Shown: positions 6,440 to 48,583 of the stretch, piece after piece
Layout: every line of letters starts with the position of its first letter
Position numbering within the stretch: position 1 is the first letter of the stretch
From: a virus
Virus record (IMG/VR): IMGVR_UViG_3300020430_000972
Coordinates: 1 to 49,772 of that record
Length of the DNA: 49,772 nt
Reading direction: 5' to 3' (one strand)
The notes under the pieces: generated by a model
Told to the model about the DNA's origin: nothing
Seen by the model: only the letters and a program-made list of their open reading frames with translations
Databases searched by the model: none
Made by a program: the position numbers and the translations under genes

Positions 6440-6447
6440 TATTTATG
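6440..6447 (-). promoter_or_regulatory. T4-type late promoter box
   Basis: CATAAATA on the minus strand. Its last base is 9 nt from the A of the start codon of the 453-aa gene, where a late transcript would be expected to begin. Confidence 0.5.
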
Positions 6448-7144
6448 CTATTTTAGGGAACAGGGCATTAGTGCAAAACTCATCTACATCAGCTTCATTA
6501 AGTCCTAAAGACTTCATTACACGTGGTGTATGTGGGTTTTGTTGCTGGTTATGGCAGTAATAGTCTTGCGATCCAGCAGTAAAATCAACAGGTTGCTCTC
6601 CAGCATACTCAGGCACACTTTCAAACCATACCTTCAAATTATCTACTGCAAGTTTGCAGATAGCAACTGCTTCTTCTTCAGTGGCCACATTACCAGCGGC
6701 AATCATTCCTTCACTAAAGATATTCTTTGCCCACTCAGGCAGTTCACGTTTTTTAGTAGGAATAAAATCTTTCACTGCATCTAAATACCATTCACACAAC
6801 GGATGATCTTCTCCTCCACTAGATGCTGAAAAGTCGTGAAAGGCACCTGTCATCTTACGTTTGCCTGCTATAACATCAAAGCCGTAAATAGGTGATCCGT
6901 TGTCTAATGTTGGAAAACAACAAACGTGCATCATCCATAGTCCTTTGGATTCACGCACATCAACAACATCAATATGAGCCCTGCGTACATTGTTGTTAGC
7001 CCAAACTCTATTAATCCAACCGTTCTCAGGTTGATTAAACTTGTTAAGGCCTTTCTCTTCTATTTCTTCAGCATACTGATTAAAGATATCAAGTATGTCA
7101 TCTTGACATTTTATCAAAGTATCCCATATGATTGATTCGCTCAT
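6443..7144 (-). CDS. pcyX: Ferredoxin-dependent bilin reductase (PcyX-like)
   Basis: 233 aa, normal for this family. The core WMMHVCCFPTLDNGSPIYG followed by FDVIAGKRKMTGAFHDFSAS (about residues 69-107) matches ferredoxin-dependent bilin reductases (PcyA/PebS type), which reduce biliverdin to phycobilins; Asp in YGFDV and AFHDFS are candidate catalytic residues. PcyX-type reductases are known from uncultured marine phages thought to infect alphaproteobacteria and make phycoerythrobilin. The 4-nt overlap with the halogenase and the heme oxygenase one gene further up support biliverdin as substrate. It could also be PebS- or PcyA-like; the exact product cannot be read from sequence. Confidence 0.85.
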   Translation of the reverse strand: MSESIIWDTLIKCQDDILDIFNQYAEEIEEKGLNKFNQPENGWINRVWANNNVRRAHIDVVDVRESKGLWMMHVCCFPTLDNGSPIYGFDVIAGKRKMTGAFHDFSASSGGEDHPLCEWYLDAVKDFIPTKKRELPEWAKNIFSEGMIAAGNVATEEEAVAICKLAVDNLKVWFESVPEYAGEQPVDFTAGSQDYYCHNQQQNPHTPRVMKSLGLNEADVDEFCTNALFPKIA

Positions 7145-8634
7145 CTATTTCCCCATTGTCTATTACCCATTCCTGGATATGAAATCTTTTTGTTATCAGC
7201 TCTCATTTTACTTAAGATATCTATTGCTTCTTTGCTATCTAATTTGGCTGTTGCAGTTTTAATGCCTACAGAGTTTAGCCATAGTTTCCAATTGATGTCT
7301 TGGAATATTTCTGTATTGCGTGGAAAGAACTGTTCATCAACTGTTGGTGTGTAATTTCTTGCATAGTTTGTTGCAATAGTTTCTAGCTTTTCAGTTTCAG
7401 TAAAATGTTTGTCAACGTGTTTCCAAAACTTGCTTTGTCTTTTGTTATTAAAGTAGTGTAATGCAACAAAGTTCATGCTGTCTTCATATACGTTGCTCAT
7501 GTCAAAGTTAAATGTATCAGCATCTTCCTGTGTGTATCCACCCTTCTTAAGATATTTTAGTCCTGTTGATCCTATTACTAATAGTGCAAGTCCAGTTGAC
7601 TCTAGTGGTTCAATAAATCCACTTGCAAGTCCTACACTAAAACAATTACTTCTCCAGTTGTTTTTGTTATATTCAGGTTTGAATGGCACATGATTAAACA
7701 CTCCAGTTCTTAATCTATGTTCTCCCCAATGTTGTACAAAATAATCTTCTGCTTCTTGTTTGCTTGTAATATCACTGTTGTAACATAAGCCACTGCCTAT
7801 CCTATCTTTGACAGGAGTTTTCCATATCCAACCATGGTCACAAGCCTGTGCAGTTACATAAGGTACCTGTGCTTCGTCCTGTGTTTCATAATTAATTTGA
7901 CTAGCCACTGCGGCATTTGTAAACAACATATGATCTCTATTGATCCATTCACTGTTGCCTAATGCATTTGATAATAATCTTTTGAATCCTGTACAGTCAA
8001 CAAAAAAGTCTCCTGTAACCATATCACCGTTTTCTAATTGCACATGATCTATCTTGCCATCAACCACAACAGGTGTGTCTATGTGTGCTTTGATGTGTCT
8101 TAATCTTGGATACTTCTTGTTACAATATTCACTCAAGAAGTTTGCCAACTTAATTGCATCTAAATGATATCCTACATGAGCATCACCGCCTAGTGCAGTT
8201 GTATTAGCGGCAACCTTTTTATCTACAACACTTACATCATACCAGGCTGTCCATTGTTCAAAGTCTTTGTTATCTATGTTTCCATCTCTACATAAGTCTA
8301 CAAAGTCTGCAAAGTTATCTTTTGAAGTTTTTTCAATTGGAAAATAAAAAGGTTGCCATATGTTGACACCATCATCTCTCCAATTAGGAAAATATGTTCC
8401 TAACTTAATTGTTGCATCACATGACTTTGTCCATAGTTCTTTGCTGATACCACATTCATCTAAGAAATGATCAAAGCCTAATATGGTTGCTTCTCCTACA
8501 CCAACTGTTGGAACGTTAGGACTTTCTATTAAGGTAATTTGTATGTTGGGTAAATTGTATAAGGCATAGGCGGCTGTGAGCCAACCTGCACTACCTCCTC
8601 CAACTATAACAATCTTATTGACTGTCGACAACAT
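7141..8634 (-). CDS. Flavin-dependent (tryptophan-type) halogenase
   Basis: 497 aa. An N-terminal FAD-binding IVIVGGGSAGW (GxGxxG, residues 12-17) is followed by TVGVGEAT, and Lys77 in CDATIKLGTYF aligns with the catalytic Lys79 of PrnA/RebH. The signature WxWxIP appears as WIWKTP (269-274). These enzymes use FADH2 and O2 to make HOCl or HOBr and halogenate aromatic rings, needing a partner flavin reductase not seen here. The gene overlaps heme oxygenase by 20 nt and the bilin reductase by 4 nt, so a bilin or other pyrrole may be the substrate (inference). Related viral halogenases are known in cyanophages. Confidence 0.9.
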   Translation of the reverse strand: MLSTVNKIVIVGGGSAGWLTAAYALYNLPNIQITLIESPNVPTVGVGEATILGFDHFLDECGISKELWTKSCDATIKLGTYFPNWRDDGVNIWQPFYFPIEKTSKDNFADFVDLCRDGNIDNKDFEQWTAWYDVSVVDKKVAANTTALGGDAHVGYHLDAIKLANFLSEYCNKKYPRLRHIKAHIDTPVVVDGKIDHVQLENGDMVTGDFFVDCTGFKRLLSNALGNSEWINRDHMLFTNAAVASQINYETQDEAQVPYVTAQACDHGWIWKTPVKDRIGSGLCYNSDITSKQEAEDYFVQHWGEHRLRTGVFNHVPFKPEYNKNNWRSNCFSVGLASGFIEPLESTGLALLVIGSTGLKYLKKGGYTQEDADTFNFDMSNVYEDSMNFVALHYFNNKRQSKFWKHVDKHFTETEKLETIATNYARNYTPTVDEQFFPRNTEIFQDINWKLWLNSVGIKTATAKLDSKEAIDILSKMRADNKKISYPGMGNRQWGNR

Positions 8635-9163
8635 CCATCATCTCCTGAAAGGTCCTAGTAGCAAAGTCAAAACATATCTTGGCTTCGTCAGCCATGCTGT
8701 CATCTAGCTTTGATCTAATAGCAGTTTTAAGAGTATCTGGATCTTCAAACTGATACAGTCTACCTTCGCCAGGTACACGTTTACGTATCATTTGTCCGCC
8801 ACTTAGGTCGCCCATGTGTCTTGTGTAAATGTGTGCGAACAATTTATTTTCATCATCACTAATTTTCATAATGTGATCTGTGTATTCTTTTGTAACGTTG
8901 AGCAGTTTAGGTGGGTTGTCTTTGTCCTCCCACAGTTCTTCATAGTCTGCAAATATTGCCGGAGCTCTTCTGATGTCTCCTAGTTCACCTAGCAAACCTT
9001 TTGCCATTGCGTGGACTTCTAAAATATTATATTGCGGATGTTGATTGTACAGAAAGGTTGCATATATTTCAGGAGATATCTTTCCTCCTAATAATACCTT
9101 AACAAATTTTTGTCTTTCTGCGTTTCTGTGATGTTCCCAAGTAAGTTCTTTTAGTTTGCTCAT
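8615..9163 (-). CDS. ho1: Heme oxygenase
   Basis: 182 aa. The proximal-histidine region TWEHHRNAERQ (residues 8-18) and the family signature MGDLSGGQ (117-124) are clear HO-1 type marks; a YNQHPQYNILE segment follows the first helix. It opens heme with three O2 to give biliverdin, CO and Fe2+, using ferredoxin or another donor. It is coupled upstream to ClpS (4-nt overlap) and downstream to the halogenase and bilin reductase. Besides bilin supply it could release iron for the many iron enzymes encoded nearby. Confidence 0.94.
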   Translation of the reverse strand: MSKLKELTWEHHRNAERQKFVKVLLGGKISPEIYATFLYNQHPQYNILEVHAMAKGLLGELGDIRRAPAIFADYEELWEDKDNPPKLLNVTKEYTDHIMKISDDENKLFAHIYTRHMGDLSGGQMIRKRVPGEGRLYQFEDPDTLKTAIRSKLDDSMADEAKICFDFATRTFQEMMDVVDSQ

Positions 9164-9468
9164 TCCTTTTCCAATTCGACTTTCAATGGAAATCCATTTG
9201 ATCGAGCCAAATTGGTAGTTTCTAAGCCTTTTTGTTCTGCTATCTCAAAGGTGTAGACTCCAACTATTGCGGAACCTTCGTTATGTATACTGGTTGTCAA
9301 ATCTCTAGCAGTTTCGGTGCTGTGTTTGAAAATTGATACAAGAACATCGATCACGAAATCCATAGGTGTTAGGTCGTCATTAAGCATAATGACTTTATAA
9401 AGATCGGGTTCAGCGATCTTCTGCTTTATTTTTTCGTCTATTTGAACGTCCATAACATTACTTATCAT
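9160..9468 (-). CDS. clpS: ClpS adaptor
   Basis: 102 aa, typical ClpS length. YKVIMLNDDLTPMDFVIDVL (about residues 24-43) carries the Asn-Asp-Asp N-degron pocket motif, followed by the helix with STETARDL and the terminal FPLKVELE strand. ClpS recognises Leu/Phe/Tyr/Trp N-termini and passes those proteins to ClpA-ClpP. The start has GGAG 6 nt upstream. A phage copy could redirect host N-degron degradation; ClpP is encoded about 5.5 kb away. Confidence 0.92.
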   Translation of the reverse strand: MISNVMDVQIDEKIKQKIAEPDLYKVIMLNDDLTPMDFVIDVLVSIFKHSTETARDLTTSIHNEGSAIVGVYTFEIAEQKGLETTNLARSNGFPLKVELEKE

Positions 9469-19763: not shown

Positions 19764-19792
19764 AGTATAACAGATATTGTTAAGGATGTCAA
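19764..19792 (-). promoter_or_regulatory. Sigma70-like promoter
   Basis: TTGACA, 17-bp spacer, TATACT on the minus strand, for the 34-aa gene, tRNA-Asp and genes beyond. The -35 box contains the TGA stop of the Rieske-oxygenase-like gene. Confidence 0.83.
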
Positions 19793-20868
19793 CCACGTAA
19801 TGGATTGGCAGGATCCACTTCTAAGAACTTACCCCATTCAGCATAGTAATGACGCATACCAACTTCATCATGTATTGTGCCATTTTCATGTCTACCATGT
19901 AATATGTTCCTTGCTTCTGTACCTTCACGCATGGTTGTACCTTGTCCGGCTACACCAATTAGATCTTCGTGTAGATTACGTCCAAATGGTCCCCATATAC
20001 TATTGTGATGGTTAATCCGTGTGCGTCTTTCTTCTGGTGTGTCGTTACGTAATCCATATCCTCTGAATTCAATAAGAACTTTGTTAGGTCCTAATGGAGT
20101 CACTGCATCACTGCGATATGCACTACCACGTAGGTTAAAGTTGAAACCAGGAAACAAGTCTACCATGTACCATTGATTGGGTGGTAGATTAGGAAAGGAC
20201 AGTTCTCCTCTGTCTTCAAAGCCATCATACTCCTCATAATTGACAGTGAACGAACTAACATTCACATGACCATTATCGAACGGAATATTCTTTCTTGCAA
20301 AGTATTCATCATTGAATCCACTCACTCTGTTAAAGTAGTGCATGAAGTCATGATAAAATTCACTGTTGGTATCATGCCACAGTTTATAATTTGTGTCTAT
20401 TACTGCTTTGTGATAATGAAACACTTCAAGCTCTTCTGTGTCAATGGCATCAGCAATACAATCAAATGCACCTGCCGTCCATTGTTCTACGGTTTGTGTA
20501 GGGTTAGGATCTAGTGTTACCCAAACCATACCTCCGTGCTTGACTTCACAATGCAAAGGCTTTTCTGTAGTTGCAAAATCCCAAGTGTATGTTCCTGCAG
20601 GTTTTCTTATGTCTATGTCATTGGTGTTATGATATGCTTGTACGTTTGTGCCATCAATGTTGATTGCAATGACTCTTACGTCTGCAATCTTTGTGGTTCT
20701 AAAGTCACCTTTGTTTCGCATTTCACTGATATGGCACATAGGTATCCATACCTTCTTAAAGATTTGTTTTTGTTCTTGTTCATATATTTGATAATTGTTA
20801 TAACATTCGCTACTGATAAATTCTACTGTTGGACGAGATTTCCAACTCCTATGATTGCGTGGGGGCAT
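19789..20868 (-). CDS. Rieske-type ring-hydroxylase alpha subunit homologue lacking the Rieske site
   Basis: 359 aa from the ATG at 20868 (AAGGAGAC upstream). The catalytic half looks intact: YKLWHDTNSEFYHDFMH supplies His173 and His177, and HEDLIGVAGQG the Asp302 ligand of the mononuclear iron. The N-terminal half resembles the Rieske domain (KVWIPMCHISEM, VRVIAINIDGTNVQAYHN, GGMVWVTLDP), but the stretch that should hold C-x-H and C-x-x-H is about 50 residues short and both motifs are absent. Family members normally oxidise aromatic or quaternary ammonium substrates with electrons passing through the Rieske cluster; this one must differ or be inactive. Confidence 0.8.
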   Translation of the reverse strand: MPPRNHRSWKSRPTVEFISSECYNNYQIYEQEQKQIFKKVWIPMCHISEMRNKGDFRTTKIADVRVIAINIDGTNVQAYHNTNDIDIRKPAGTYTWDFATTEKPLHCEVKHGGMVWVTLDPNPTQTVEQWTAGAFDCIADAIDTEELEVFHYHKAVIDTNYKLWHDTNSEFYHDFMHYFNRVSGFNDEYFARKNIPFDNGHVNVSSFTVNYEEYDGFEDRGELSFPNLPPNQWYMVDLFPGFNFNLRGSAYRSDAVTPLGPNKVLIEFRGYGLRNDTPEERRTRINHHNSIWGPFGRNLHEDLIGVAGQGTTMREGTEARNILHGRHENGTIHDEVGMRHYYAEWGKFLEVDPANPLRG

Positions 20869-20895
20869 GGCAGTCTCCTTCATTATATTTAAATT

Positions 20896-20924
20896 ATTAT
20901 AACACTGAAAAAAGATAAAGTCTA
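20896..20924 (-). promoter_or_regulatory. Sigma70-like promoter
   Basis: TAGACT, 17-bp spacer, perfect TATAAT on the minus strand, before the Rieske-oxygenase-like gene. Confidence 0.68.
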
Positions 20925-20939
20925 ATAGGAAATGTCTAT

Positions 20940-21232
20940 GTGGTAATAGGCGCAACGTTTCTGTTGCTAGGTACGTTGCCAACCCCGAGCGATTATGCCG
21001 CTAAGGCAAAATCCTCATTTACAACGGATTTCTGTTTACCGAAGTTAACAAAAGTCACGTTGTTTAGTGCATTATCGTTTGCATCTATACGTTTGTTCGC
21101 GTTAACCGAGCTTACATCCGGACAGTCTCCTTCAACCTTAACAAGCCAATCGATCCTAATTCCACCCCGACGGGGGTATATTGAATTGGTGGAGTGGCCG
21201 GGAATTGCACCCGGGTCTTGCTCTTGTGACAT
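20940..21232 (-). ncRNA. ssrA: tmRNA, circularly permuted (two-piece) type
   Basis: On the minus strand the T arm (CCGGGTGCAATTCCCGG) and the 3' acceptor strand CCACTCC-A-CCA come first (21187-21220), then an 18-nt spacer, then the 5' part GGGGTGGAATTAGGATCGA starting at 21168. GGGGTGG pairs with CCACTCC. A tag reading frame follows the resume context TAGAT|GCA (21082 down to 20993); the tag begins ANDNALNN, ends NEDFALAA and then TAA. This acceptor-first order is the permuted tmRNA layout of alphaproteobacteria. tmRNA rescues stalled ribosomes and tags products for Clp proteolysis. The tag is 29 codons, long for this group. The outer ends are approximate. Confidence 0.88.
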
Positions 21233-44185: not shown

Positions 44186-44791
44186 TTAGAAGTTGACTGT
44201 AAATCCTACTGATGCTTCAGTATCAGTAGAGTTCCAATCCTTATCCATTTCTCTGTTTACACTAACACTCATTGAAGTGTTGTCACTCAATGTGATTAAA
44301 GTTCCTACAGACGCATATGAATCAGCACGATCAAAGTCAGTAAAGTCTCCTTCTAATGACTTCCAATCATAGCCCATTTCAACAAATGGAGTTAAGTTTG
44401 TTCCCATAGATGTCTCTGCACCAATGAACGGAGATAATCTCATCTCGTCTTTAGTCAAGGTGTCACCATGGGTATAGTGAATGTCACCGCCACCATATAG
44501 ATTCATACTGCCAACGGTAGCAAGATCTCTTTCACCACCTGCTGTGTATCTATAATCTGTGTTGGTTCCATCATCAATGTAAGCAACTCCTAGGTCGATT
44601 GCATTGCCGTTTGTGTGAACTTCAATCACTTGAGCATCATCTGAAAAGTCAGCAGTTGCTCCTGTTCCAATTGATAGTCCATATTTTTCTCCCTCTGCAT
44701 TCATAGAGAAGCCTGTGTTGTCATAGTTTTTTGCATACACAGGTCCGCTTAGAATCGCCAAAGAGAACATTACTAATAATATATGTTTCAT
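44186..44791 (-). CDS. Outer-membrane beta-barrel-like protein
   Basis: 201 aa with a signal peptide (MKHILLVMFSLAILSGPVYA, cleavage after VYA). The mature part alternates amphipathic strands and Asn/Asp/Gly turns (IDLGVAYIDDGTNTDYRYTAG, MNLYGGGDIHYTHGD, SMSVSVNREM) and ends in Phe (VGFTVNF), as beta-barrel assembly substrates do. About eight strands are likely. A phage-encoded outer-membrane protein could change receptors or exclude other phages (inference). No family assigned. Confidence 0.72.
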   Translation of the reverse strand: MKHILLVMFSLAILSGPVYAKNYDNTGFSMNAEGEKYGLSIGTGATADFSDDAQVIEVHTNGNAIDLGVAYIDDGTNTDYRYTAGGERDLATVGSMNLYGGGDIHYTHGDTLTKDEMRLSPFIGAETSMGTNLTPFVEMGYDWKSLEGDFTDFDRADSYASVGTLITLSDNTSMSVSVNREMDKDWNSTDTEASVGFTVNF

Positions 44792-45885: not shown

Positions 45886-46047
45886 ATGAAAAACCTCGAT
45901 CAAATTAATTCTAATTTAAACAACAATTATCCAAAATTGTTACAAGCCGTCAGTTCCAAAATGCCAGAAAAGAAAAAACTTGCCATTGTACACAGATTCA
46001 TAGAGGACCTAAATGATCTGAAAGAAGCATTGGAAAATGACAAATAA
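45886..46047 (+). CDS. Small helical protein (53 aa)
   Basis: ATG at 45886 opens MKNLDQINSNLNNNYPKLL and ends DLNDLKEALENDK. Its end overlaps the methyltransferase start by 11 nt, which supports it as a real coupled gene. No strong ribosome binding site. Unrecognised. Confidence 0.55.
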   Translation: MKNLDQINSNLNNNYPKLLQAVSSKMPEKKKLAIVHRFIEDLNDLKEALENDK

Positions 46048-46837
46048 ATTATCACAGAAAGAACAAGACGAATTATTTGCCAAGCTACAAAGCTCTAGCC
46101 AAAAGACAATGGACATCAGAGCTGAGAAAACCAAATTAAACAACCCACCTATAAACCTTTCCAATGATGAATTGTTTGATCATCATGTGGCTTTTCAAGA
46201 TTGGAAACCATTACAAAATCACGGCCTAAATGATTCTAGTATTGAGTTAAATGCAGAGGACATGGACTGGCCAATGCAAGTTAGATCATATCTTAACCTT
46301 GTGAAAGATGTTGATATACAGGGCAAGAAGATAGTTGATATGGGCTGTGGTTGGGGTAGAGGTGTTGACACAATAGCCAAGTATCATGATGCAAGTGTAA
46401 CTGGTATTGATAACAACTTACGATACGTGCAATATGCAAGGACGCATTATCCACACAGGAGATTCCTTTGTGCAGATCACATTGAACATGAATATGATAT
46501 TGTTATATCAAACTGTTCAGCACATCTTCTCATGGAAGGTGACTTCTTTGATAACAAATATAGTACAGTCATTCTTACTGATTTCTTTACAAGAACTTCA
46601 ATCAATGAGTTCAAGGACAAGCTATTAGGCAAAGGTCATTGCAAAATAGTAAACGAAGTTGACTTATCACAACAAACAATAGAAGCCATGCAATACGATA
46701 TTGCAACTATTGATGATAGATTCAAAGATATTAGTCAACATTCAAGAAATGTTTTTAAAGACATAGCACATAGTAGACTCCATCAATTTAGAATGGGGGC
46801 AAACAGACAATATAAATACATTATACAATATGCTTAA
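46037..46837 (+). CDS. SAM-dependent methyltransferase
   Basis: 266 aa. KIVDMGCGWGRGVDTIAKYH (about residues 98-117) is motif I of class I methyltransferases, VTGIDNN the acidic strand-2 end, and YDIVISNCSAHLL a motif IV-like strand. The preceding 95 residues are a distinct helical extension. Small-molecule or lipid targets are more likely than DNA because no base-flipping (D/N)PPY motif is seen. First large gene before 5-aminolevulinate synthase. Confidence 0.83.
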   Translation: MTNKLSQKEQDELFAKLQSSSQKTMDIRAEKTKLNNPPINLSNDELFDHHVAFQDWKPLQNHGLNDSSIELNAEDMDWPMQVRSYLNLVKDVDIQGKKIVDMGCGWGRGVDTIAKYHDASVTGIDNNLRYVQYARTHYPHRRFLCADHIEHEYDIVISNCSAHLLMEGDFFDNKYSTVILTDFFTRTSINEFKDKLLGKGHCKIVNEVDLSQQTIEAMQYDIATIDDRFKDISQHSRNVFKDIAHSRLHQFRMGANRQYKYIIQYA

Positions 46838-47039
46838 TTGGATTAAAAACTTTATAAAGACGTGCAATCAAATAGAAAAAGAAGTCCGTGACGCCGGCTA
46901 CATCTATCATTGTGCACCAGGATACCCAGACGTAATTGTTCAGAAGGTCCAAAAACCTAAAAACCACAAGGTAAATACTAAACATGATAGATTTAAAGCC
47001 GTTCAAACAAAAGATACAAGAACTAAAAGACAACGGTAA
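46830..47039 (+). CDS. Small basic protein overlapping hemA start
   Basis: 69 aa; the ATG overlaps the methyltransferase stop by 8 nt (ATGCTTAA), and the last 56 nt overlap the start of the synthase gene in another frame. Starts [19 protein letters not shown] and has [14 protein letters not shown]. The overlaps suggest coupling, but a chance ORF is possible. Confidence 0.5.
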
Positions 47040-48171
47040 CTACCGAGTCTTCAATGATATTCTTCGCGAGAGGGGAGACTATCCTCATGCCATTTGGTAT
47101 GGAAAGTACGCAATCAAAAACATTGTCAACTGGTGTTCTAATGATTATCTTGGAATGGGACAGCATAAAGTGGTGCTCGATGCCATGCATACCGCCCTAG
47201 ATCAAACAGGTGCAGGTTCGGGTGGAACTAGGAACATCGCGGGTACAAGTCATTATCATGTCGCACTAGAGCATGAGCTGGCTAAACTGCATAGCAAACA
47301 GTCAGCTCTGCTTTTTACATCAGCCTATGTGGCAAACGAATGGACACTAATTGCTTTAAAACGTATCATTCCCGACATTGTTTTTCTGAGCGATTCAAAG
47401 AATCATGCTTCACTAATTCAAGGAATTAGAAACAGTGGTGCTGAAAAGAAAATCTTTAAGCATAATGATCTCGAGCAACTAGAACAACTACTGCGAGACG
47501 TCAAAGGCACTCCTTGCATAGTCTTTGAATCTGTGTATAGCATGGATGGATACGTCAGTAAGATTCCAGAAATTGTTGCATTGGCTAAAAAATATAATGC
47601 CATAACTTATATCGATGAGGTCCACGCCGTTGGCCTGTATGGTGAAACAGGTGCAGGAATGTCTGCCAAGCTAAGATCACAGGATCAAATCGATATCATT
47701 AACGGCACACTTGGTAAAGCCTTTGGAGTACAGGGTGGATATATTGCAGGGAAGTCAGATGTAATTGACGCAATTCGTTCAGTCTCCTCAGGCTTTATCT
47801 TTACAACATCAATGAGTCCTGTGATTGTTGCTGGTGCTTTGGCAAGTGTCAAGTATCTAAGAGATCACAATGAACTTAGAATAAAACATCAAGAAAGAGC
47901 AAAGAGGCTTAAAACTTTATTACGCAACAGAGACATAGAGATTTTTGAGAACGAAACTCATATTGTTCCTGTCAAGGTAGGAGATGCTAAGAAGTGTAAA
48001 GCATTCAGTGATGAACTAATAAACGAATACGGAATTTATTGCCAAGCAATAAACTATCCGACTGTAGACGTAGGAACAGAGCGACTGCGTTTTGCACCAA
48101 CACCATTTCATACAAATGCAATGATGCATAGTTTGTGTGACGCTCTAGAGAAAGTAATCAAAGATGTTTGA
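46984..48171 (+). CDS. hemA: 5-aminolevulinate synthase
   Basis: 395 aa, full length. [17 protein letters not shown] holds Thr82 and Asn84 and the start region YRVFND has Arg21, matching succinyl-CoA-binding residues of the alphaproteobacterial enzyme; [10 protein letters not shown] has the PLP-ring Asp211, NGTLGKAFG the Schiff-base Lys245. Condenses glycine and succinyl-CoA to 5-aminolevulinate, the first step of heme synthesis by the C4 pathway. Related 2-amino-3-ketobutyrate ligase is excluded by the TRNIAGT segment. Upstream GGTAAATACT could be a weak late box. It feeds the pathway that ends in heme oxygenase and bilin reductase on this genome. Confidence 0.94.
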
Positions 48172-48583
48172 TATAAAACGTAATCTATACAGAGGGCTAG
48201 GCTTTCTGTGTGTGGGTATCGCCTATATAGGATTCATTACTCCGGGCATACCTTTTTCAATATTTTTAGTGATAGCCGCTTGGGCCTTTGCTAAAAGCTC
48301 ACCTAAGATGGAGAAGTGGTTGTACAATCACCCATGGTTTGGACCTTTCCTAACCAACTGGGTCAAGAAGAGAGTATTCCCACAGAAGGGCAAGTATGCA
48401 ATGATACTTGTGATGTCTTCAACTCTAGTGTTTACTTGGTTCGCAACTGAGAACATGAAAGCTATCCTATGGAGCGGAGGTTTCATGGCACTTGTGGCAA
48501 TATGGGCTTGGAGATATCCTAGCACAGTCGCAGAACACGACAAAAGAATCAAACTCGGCCAAAAGATAGGCTGGATCAAATAA
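48164..48583 (+). CDS. DUF454/YbaN-like inner-membrane protein
   Basis: 139 aa. [39 protein letters not shown]... and [13 protein letters not shown] match the DUF454 (YbaN) family: two N-terminal helices, the conserved P-G-I-P and F-A-K-S-S-P segments, then two more helices. Function unknown. The 8-nt overlap with hemA implies coupled expression with heme synthesis. Confidence 0.88.

Follow-up and report, generated by a model that had tools for sequence, protein, structure and literature searches.

Is the 5-aminolevulinate synthase (ALAS) gene read on a marine viral DNA genuine, and is it tied to the genes for heme breakdown that the same genome carries? Alphaproteobacteria commit to heme synthesis at the step that ALAS catalyzes, so the presence of the gene in a phage points to tetrapyrrole supply as a limiting factor in some marine infections. 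The DNA analyzed here (the window) is an IMG/VR virus record of 49,772 bases with 37.6% GC, carrying genes common to T4-like phages and cyanomyoviruses. No terminal repeats were found in the 49,772-base contig, so it is likely a piece of a larger genome.

Identity of the window AlaS and its place on a viral contig

The alaS gene (hemA of the Shemin/C4 pathway) extends from 46984 to 48171 on the plus strand. It has an ATG start and no internal stop, giving a protein of 395 aa. The product matched PF00155 and scored 569.6 bits with the NCBIfam model TIGR01821 (5aminolev_synth; cut-off 338.55), and the closest solved structures were ALAS 7x98 and R. capsulatus ALAS 2bwn, with which it shares family and catalytic residues. 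The fold and the catalytic core are common to other alpha-oxoamine synthases (2-amino-3-ketobutyrate CoA ligase, KBL; BioF; serine palmitoyltransferase-like enzymes), and the NCBIfam profiles of KBL and BioF did match the window protein, but with lower scores: 317.7 bits for bioF (cut-off 426.45), and 317.5 and 255.7 bits for the KBL models (cut-offs 460 and 493, respectively). The ALAS equivalog cut-off was the only one reached, and an identity as KBL, the case that the sequence-only reading had named as fatal to its assignment, or as BioF was ruled out by profile scores below cut-off. The protein was mostly 49-58% identical to alphaproteobacterial ALAS versus about 32% to KBL, and KBL and BioF fell outside in the tree, which makes it very improbable that another alpha-oxoamine synthase is encoded here.

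Five key residues, Arg21, Thr82, Asn84, Asp211 and Lys245, had been listed in the same reading, and all were found exactly where it placed them. They correspond to R21, T83, N85, D214 and K248 of R. capsulatus AlaS, and each is invariant in the alignment with 104 viral and 45-46 bacterial homologues. Invariant among the 104 viral and 46 bacterial homologues are R21, N54, T83, N85, S137, H142, E185, S189, D214, H217, K248, T365 and R374 (R. capsulatus numbering), the sole exception being gaps in one shortened bacterial sequence. The window AlaS has the PLP lysine and the substrate residues (R21, T83, N85, D214, H217, K248, T365, R374 in the same numbering). As judged from its sequence, the ORF is a real, full-length ALAS with an intact active site, as had been claimed.

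ALAS is an ordinary gene of alphaproteobacteria, and its presence here would also be accounted for by a recent chance pick-up from the host or by a bacterial contig mis-classed as viral. Such an origin has next to no probability: the contig shares genes with T4-like phages, many viral contigs show the same gene order, and a branch with 100/100 support divides phage from bacterial AlaS, so that the tree and the common gene order already contradict it. Lying on a virus record with this gene content, the window alaS is classed from sequence as a phage auxiliary metabolic gene (valaS). One scan of viral contigs confirmed at least 502 viral relatives of the window AlaS, the best 80 of which, 71-97% identical, were kept. 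Annotated phage records contained no close AlaS match; all matches were below 36% identity and several were annotated as KBL or BioF.

Phage alaS is known and widespread, and the window gene is a further example. According to the main text of Wegner et al. (2024, Nat Commun 15:8783; PMC11480375), phage contigs from both marine and freshwater sources bear alaS, in some cases together with hemO and pcyA/X and in others without them; phage AlaS cluster apart from bacterial ones and often miss heme-regulatory residues, and Pelagibacteraceae are stated to be closest. The same text reports that the CB_2 phage ALAS complements the 5-ALA auxotroph E. coli ST18 and makes 5-ALA, and that co-expression of phage heme oxygenase and ferredoxin-dependent bilin reductase (FDBR) in E. 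coli did not reduce porphyrin build-up. The novelty implied by the sequence-only reading was consequently lost, phage alaS having been published and shown functional in 2024, and the checks it had proposed (complementation of a hemA mutant, a survey of viral metagenomes, an AlaS tree) had in substance been carried out there (PMC11480375); the ALAS identity, the phage clade and the presence of heme oxygenase and bilin reductase on the same genome stood. The window, which may itself be among the contigs of PMC11480375, has in common with the described valaS a Shemin-pathway ALAS on a phage contig with hemO and pcyA/X type genes. It differs in having alaS beside a DUF454 gene and a halogenase homologue between heme oxygenase and reductase, neither of which is named in the main text of that paper. 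Added here beyond that main text are the DUF454 neighbour, the late-promoter motifs, the missing feedback residues of bacterial relatives, and the alaS of the symbiont PsAf.

Phylogeny of phage AlaS and the heme-feedback residues

In a tree of 64 proteins, a branch with 100/100 support separated 25 bacterial AlaS from phage AlaS, which were joined by four sequences binned in bacterial MAGs and one chromosomal bacterial gene. The four MAG-binned sequences look like phage contigs and have DUF454 alongside in 4/4 cases. A larger rooted tree put the phage group, including the window AlaS, within the diversity of alphaproteobacterial-type AlaS; this topology fits a single capture, although the deeper forks were weakly supported. 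The separation of phage from bacterial AlaS was obtained with a set that excluded the published phage sequences, and no sequence in the AlaS trees was identified as Pelagibacter.

The chromosomal gene belongs to the Neisseriaceae bacterium PsAf (L084:3001-4188, WNLJ01000010.1), and its position inside the phage clade was supported at 99/95 and 98/93. PsAf, a betaproteobacterium, lives in symbiosis with Polyplax serrata, a louse that feeds on blood (PMC9376444). Its alaS lies in an ordinary-looking chromosomal setting, as far as neighbours judged by eye can tell. In the PsAf draft genome neither enzyme searched for passed its cut-off, with 44.9 versus 209.55 bits for GluTR and 138 versus 527 bits for GSAM. 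From these sequences it looks as if a phage-type ALAS replaced the C5 pathway in PsAf, a reading limited by the draft state of the genome and by the long branch.

The published heme-feedback site is missing from the window AlaS, which has Lys in place of His342 and lacks Cys400. Both residues are present in R. capsulatus ALAS, unlike the window AlaS and all sampled bacterial relatives: His342 was replaced in 103/104 viral and 46/46 bacterial-genome AlaS of the alignment (mostly by Leu, Lys or Gln), and Cys occupied position 400 in 0/46 bacterial-genome versus 12/104 viral sequences. The 46 bacterial sequences were chosen by similarity to the phage gene, not at random, and five of them belong to the phage clade. 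The first eight and the last seven residues of the R. capsulatus AlaS reference are provisional. Its Cys400 agrees with the numbering of PMC11480375. In the text of Wegner et al. (2024; PMC11480375) the loss of His342 and Cys400 is read as a phage advantage. A phage-specific loss was unsupported in the present set because the sampled bacterial relatives lack the residues too, and their lack, as far as these alignments indicate, cannot by itself count as a phage adaptation.

Neighbours of alaS and its putative late expression

The alaS stop codon is overlapped by 8 nt by the start of a gene for a small DUF454 (YbaN-like) membrane protein (48164-48583, plus strand; PF04304, 99.6 bits, cut-off 35.1). 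Upstream, the alaS start is overlapped by a small conserved ORF of 69 aa (46830-47039, plus strand), a homologue of which, 42-76% identical, occupies the same place in the close relatives L002-L009. It is preceded by a gene for a methyltransferase-domain protein (46037-46837, plus strand; PF13649, 35.1 bits, cut-off 27), found upstream of alaS in the closer relatives only.

Among the 80 viral alaS loci (the best 80 of at least 502 relatives), 57 had DUF454 close to alaS and in the same orientation, lying downstream in 52 and upstream in 5, the latter with the order DUF454-alaS-FDBR. The 41 bacterial alaS loci L087-L127, for which flanks of up to 3 kb were covered, all lacked it beside alaS. 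The idea of DUF454 as a partner of alaS only was weakened by a separate set of 80 viral DUF454 loci, 57 of which lacked alaS out to a distance of 8 kb; genes for ribonucleotide reductase and cold-shock proteins were the neighbours there, and some longer records of this ribonucleotide reductase type carried alaS elsewhere. The 30 best-scoring bacterial DUF454 loci had priC, phosphoribosyltransferase and dnaX-type genes as neighbours, and the heme-oxygenase family was not among their 25 most frequent neighbour families. Links of DUF454 with heme come from the literature: DUF454 and haem oxygenase each co-occur with T11SS genes (PMC12282271), and iron restriction raises DUF454 in Avibacterium (PMC7970244); the bacterial neighbourhoods sampled yielded none. 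Because DUF454 is often apart from alaS and its heme links are from the literature alone, a DUF454-AlaS partnership is a reasonable but weak suggestion.

A phage-type alaS with DUF454 is also present on PBPT01000016.1, a 335-kb contig binned as Neomarinimicrobiota that is perhaps phage DNA in a MAG; an ORF near these genes (L083:5656-6249) reads, by eye, like an alternative oxidase.

The late promoter of T4-like cyanophages is NATAAATA (PMC2984593). A strong T4-type late-promoter match, TATAAATA, lies at 46811-46818 on the plus strand, 11 nt upstream of the 69-aa ORF, and relatives keep the motif upstream of alaS; the motif scan also gave a weak late-promoter-like match, GGTAAATA, at 46970-46977 on the same strand, 6 nt before alaS begins. 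Across 33 dereplicated viral loci (differing by more than 8% in protein), the 25 nt preceding alaS contained TAAATA in 18 and the full NATAAATA in 11, versus 1.1% and 0.26%, respectively, of random 25-nt stretches from these loci. Over the whole window the number of late-promoter motifs was not above chance (7 versus 4.3 expected), and sigma-70-type promoters and terminators near alaS showed no excess over shuffles. Because the motif is conserved upstream of alaS in relatives, transcription of alaS is likely late and driven by a T4-type late promoter.

The heme oxygenase-bilin reductase operon and its relation to alaS

The heme oxygenase and bilin reductase that the sequence-only reading had placed on the same genome as alaS were located at 8615-9163 and 6443-7144, both on the minus strand. 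The heme oxygenase matched PF01126 with 75.5 bits (cut-off 23) and is 42.9% identical to the heme oxygenase of the pelagiphage Mosig. It is preceded by a gene for a ClpS adaptor (9160-9468, minus strand; PF02617, 101.7 bits) and followed by one for a tryptophan-halogenase homologue of the FAD-dependent family (7141-8634, minus strand; PF04820, 310 bits), which has the same place in close relatives. ClpS is the first gene of a conserved ClpS-heme oxygenase-(halogenase)-FDBR run; in this run the gene ends overlap the following starts on the minus strand, forming one operon.

The ferredoxin-dependent reductase (PF05996, 57.7 bits, cut-off 31) found its best solved structure in PcyX 5owg, with 284 bits versus about 53 bits for PcyA. 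In its RRAHIDVVD stretch it has Asp, as does PcyX, where PcyA has Glu; by the alignments, this Asp59 of the window reductase corresponds to Asp55 of PcyX, the numbering being in part provisional. The enzyme is PcyX-like rather than PcyA-like by these comparisons, and its activity is predicted accordingly from sequence. Unlike PcyX 5owg, it shares its operon with the gene for the halogenase homologue immediately upstream, and a halogenated bilin as the product is an open guess.

Across 80 viral heme oxygenase loci the usual order was ClpS-heme oxygenase-FDBR, and in most related phages ClpS stands directly before heme oxygenase, as in the window. A halogenase lay between heme oxygenase and FDBR in about 17 of the 80 (by subtraction), and 12 had the three-gene order heme oxygenase-FDBR-alaS. 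Mosig EXVC030M (MT647606, Kyanoviridae) has an overlapping pair of heme oxygenase and FDBR genes, the FDBR being 54.8% identical to that of the window; it differs in having no alaS match and in lacking a halogenase within the pair. Close to the pair is a gene with the annotation putative ferrochelatase (L377:910-1680); none was noticed in the window.

The sequence-only reading had suggested a survey for hemA co-occurring with heme oxygenase and bilin reductase. Here, 46 alaS records were searched over their whole length; of the 11 that reach 50 kb, 9 carried heme oxygenase, bilin reductase or both, and 9 carried DUF454. The data did not support alaS being a core gene throughout the phage group: about 836 kb of nrdA-selected records (about 6 genome equivalents) contained two copies, and one record of 117.5 kb lacked it.

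In the window, heme oxygenase and FDBR lie together, but 37.8 kb from alaS and on the opposite strand, which argues against coupling of alaS with heme oxygenase. It could be, with a probability clearly below even, that alaS supplies heme and cytochromes only, and that the heme oxygenase/PcyX operon is a separate bilin or iron module whose co-occurrence with it reflects no more than the frequency of both in this group of phages. Besides the distinct operons, DUF454 being a commoner partner of alaS than heme oxygenase, and the occurrence of both DUF454 and heme oxygenase away from alaS, agree with such independence; the 12 loci with the heme oxygenase-FDBR-alaS order, and the many relatives with FDBR directly after alaS, speak against it.

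We hold with considerable confidence that the window alaS is a valaS for a working ALAS in a T4-like myovirus, probably expressed late with DUF454, and that heme oxygenase and PcyX from the separate operon would turn part of the heme into bilin and iron. Against this reading stand the distance and the opposite strands of alaS and the heme oxygenase operon, the porphyrin build-up left unreduced by co-expressed phage heme oxygenase and FDBR in E. coli (PMC11480375), and the lack of alaS in some related phages. The enzyme identity, active site, viral context, linkage, conserved promoter-like motif and phylogeny were established here; ALAS activity and complementation are expected by analogy with the related phage enzyme in the text of PMC11480375. 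The T4-like myovirus would infect a marine bacterium, the presumed host, and alaS would probably be transcribed late together with the DUF454 gene, its presumed partner. The phage heme oxygenase and PcyX-type reductase would then convert part of the heme to biliverdin and probably on to phycoerythrobilin, with release of iron. A rise in heme flux through this ALAS in the natural host, like the direction and use of that flux toward bilins or iron release that the sequence-only reading had also envisaged, is proposed.

A broader and rather unlikely combination is that marine T4-like phages possess a larger tetrapyrrole kit than published, consisting of a late alaS-DUF454 unit, with DUF454 helping at the membrane to handle heme or tetrapyrroles, and a ClpS-heme oxygenase-halogenase-PcyX operon maybe making a halogenated bilin, and that, in addition, a phage alaS moved to the louse symbiont and replaced its C5 pathway. 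The timing of alaS expression, the DUF454 partnership, feedback loss as a phage trait and core-pathway replacement in the symbiont are useful and testable points.

Two other window ORFs, both on the minus strand, were observed. The ORF at 44186-44791 gave a weak Phage_OMP match (cyanophage outer-membrane-like beta-barrel; 22.6 bits versus a cut-off of 27). The one at 19789-20982 carries a ring-hydroxylating (Rieske-type) oxygenase alpha-subunit domain (PF00848, 31.2 bits), and a similar ORF is found downstream of DUF454 in related phages.
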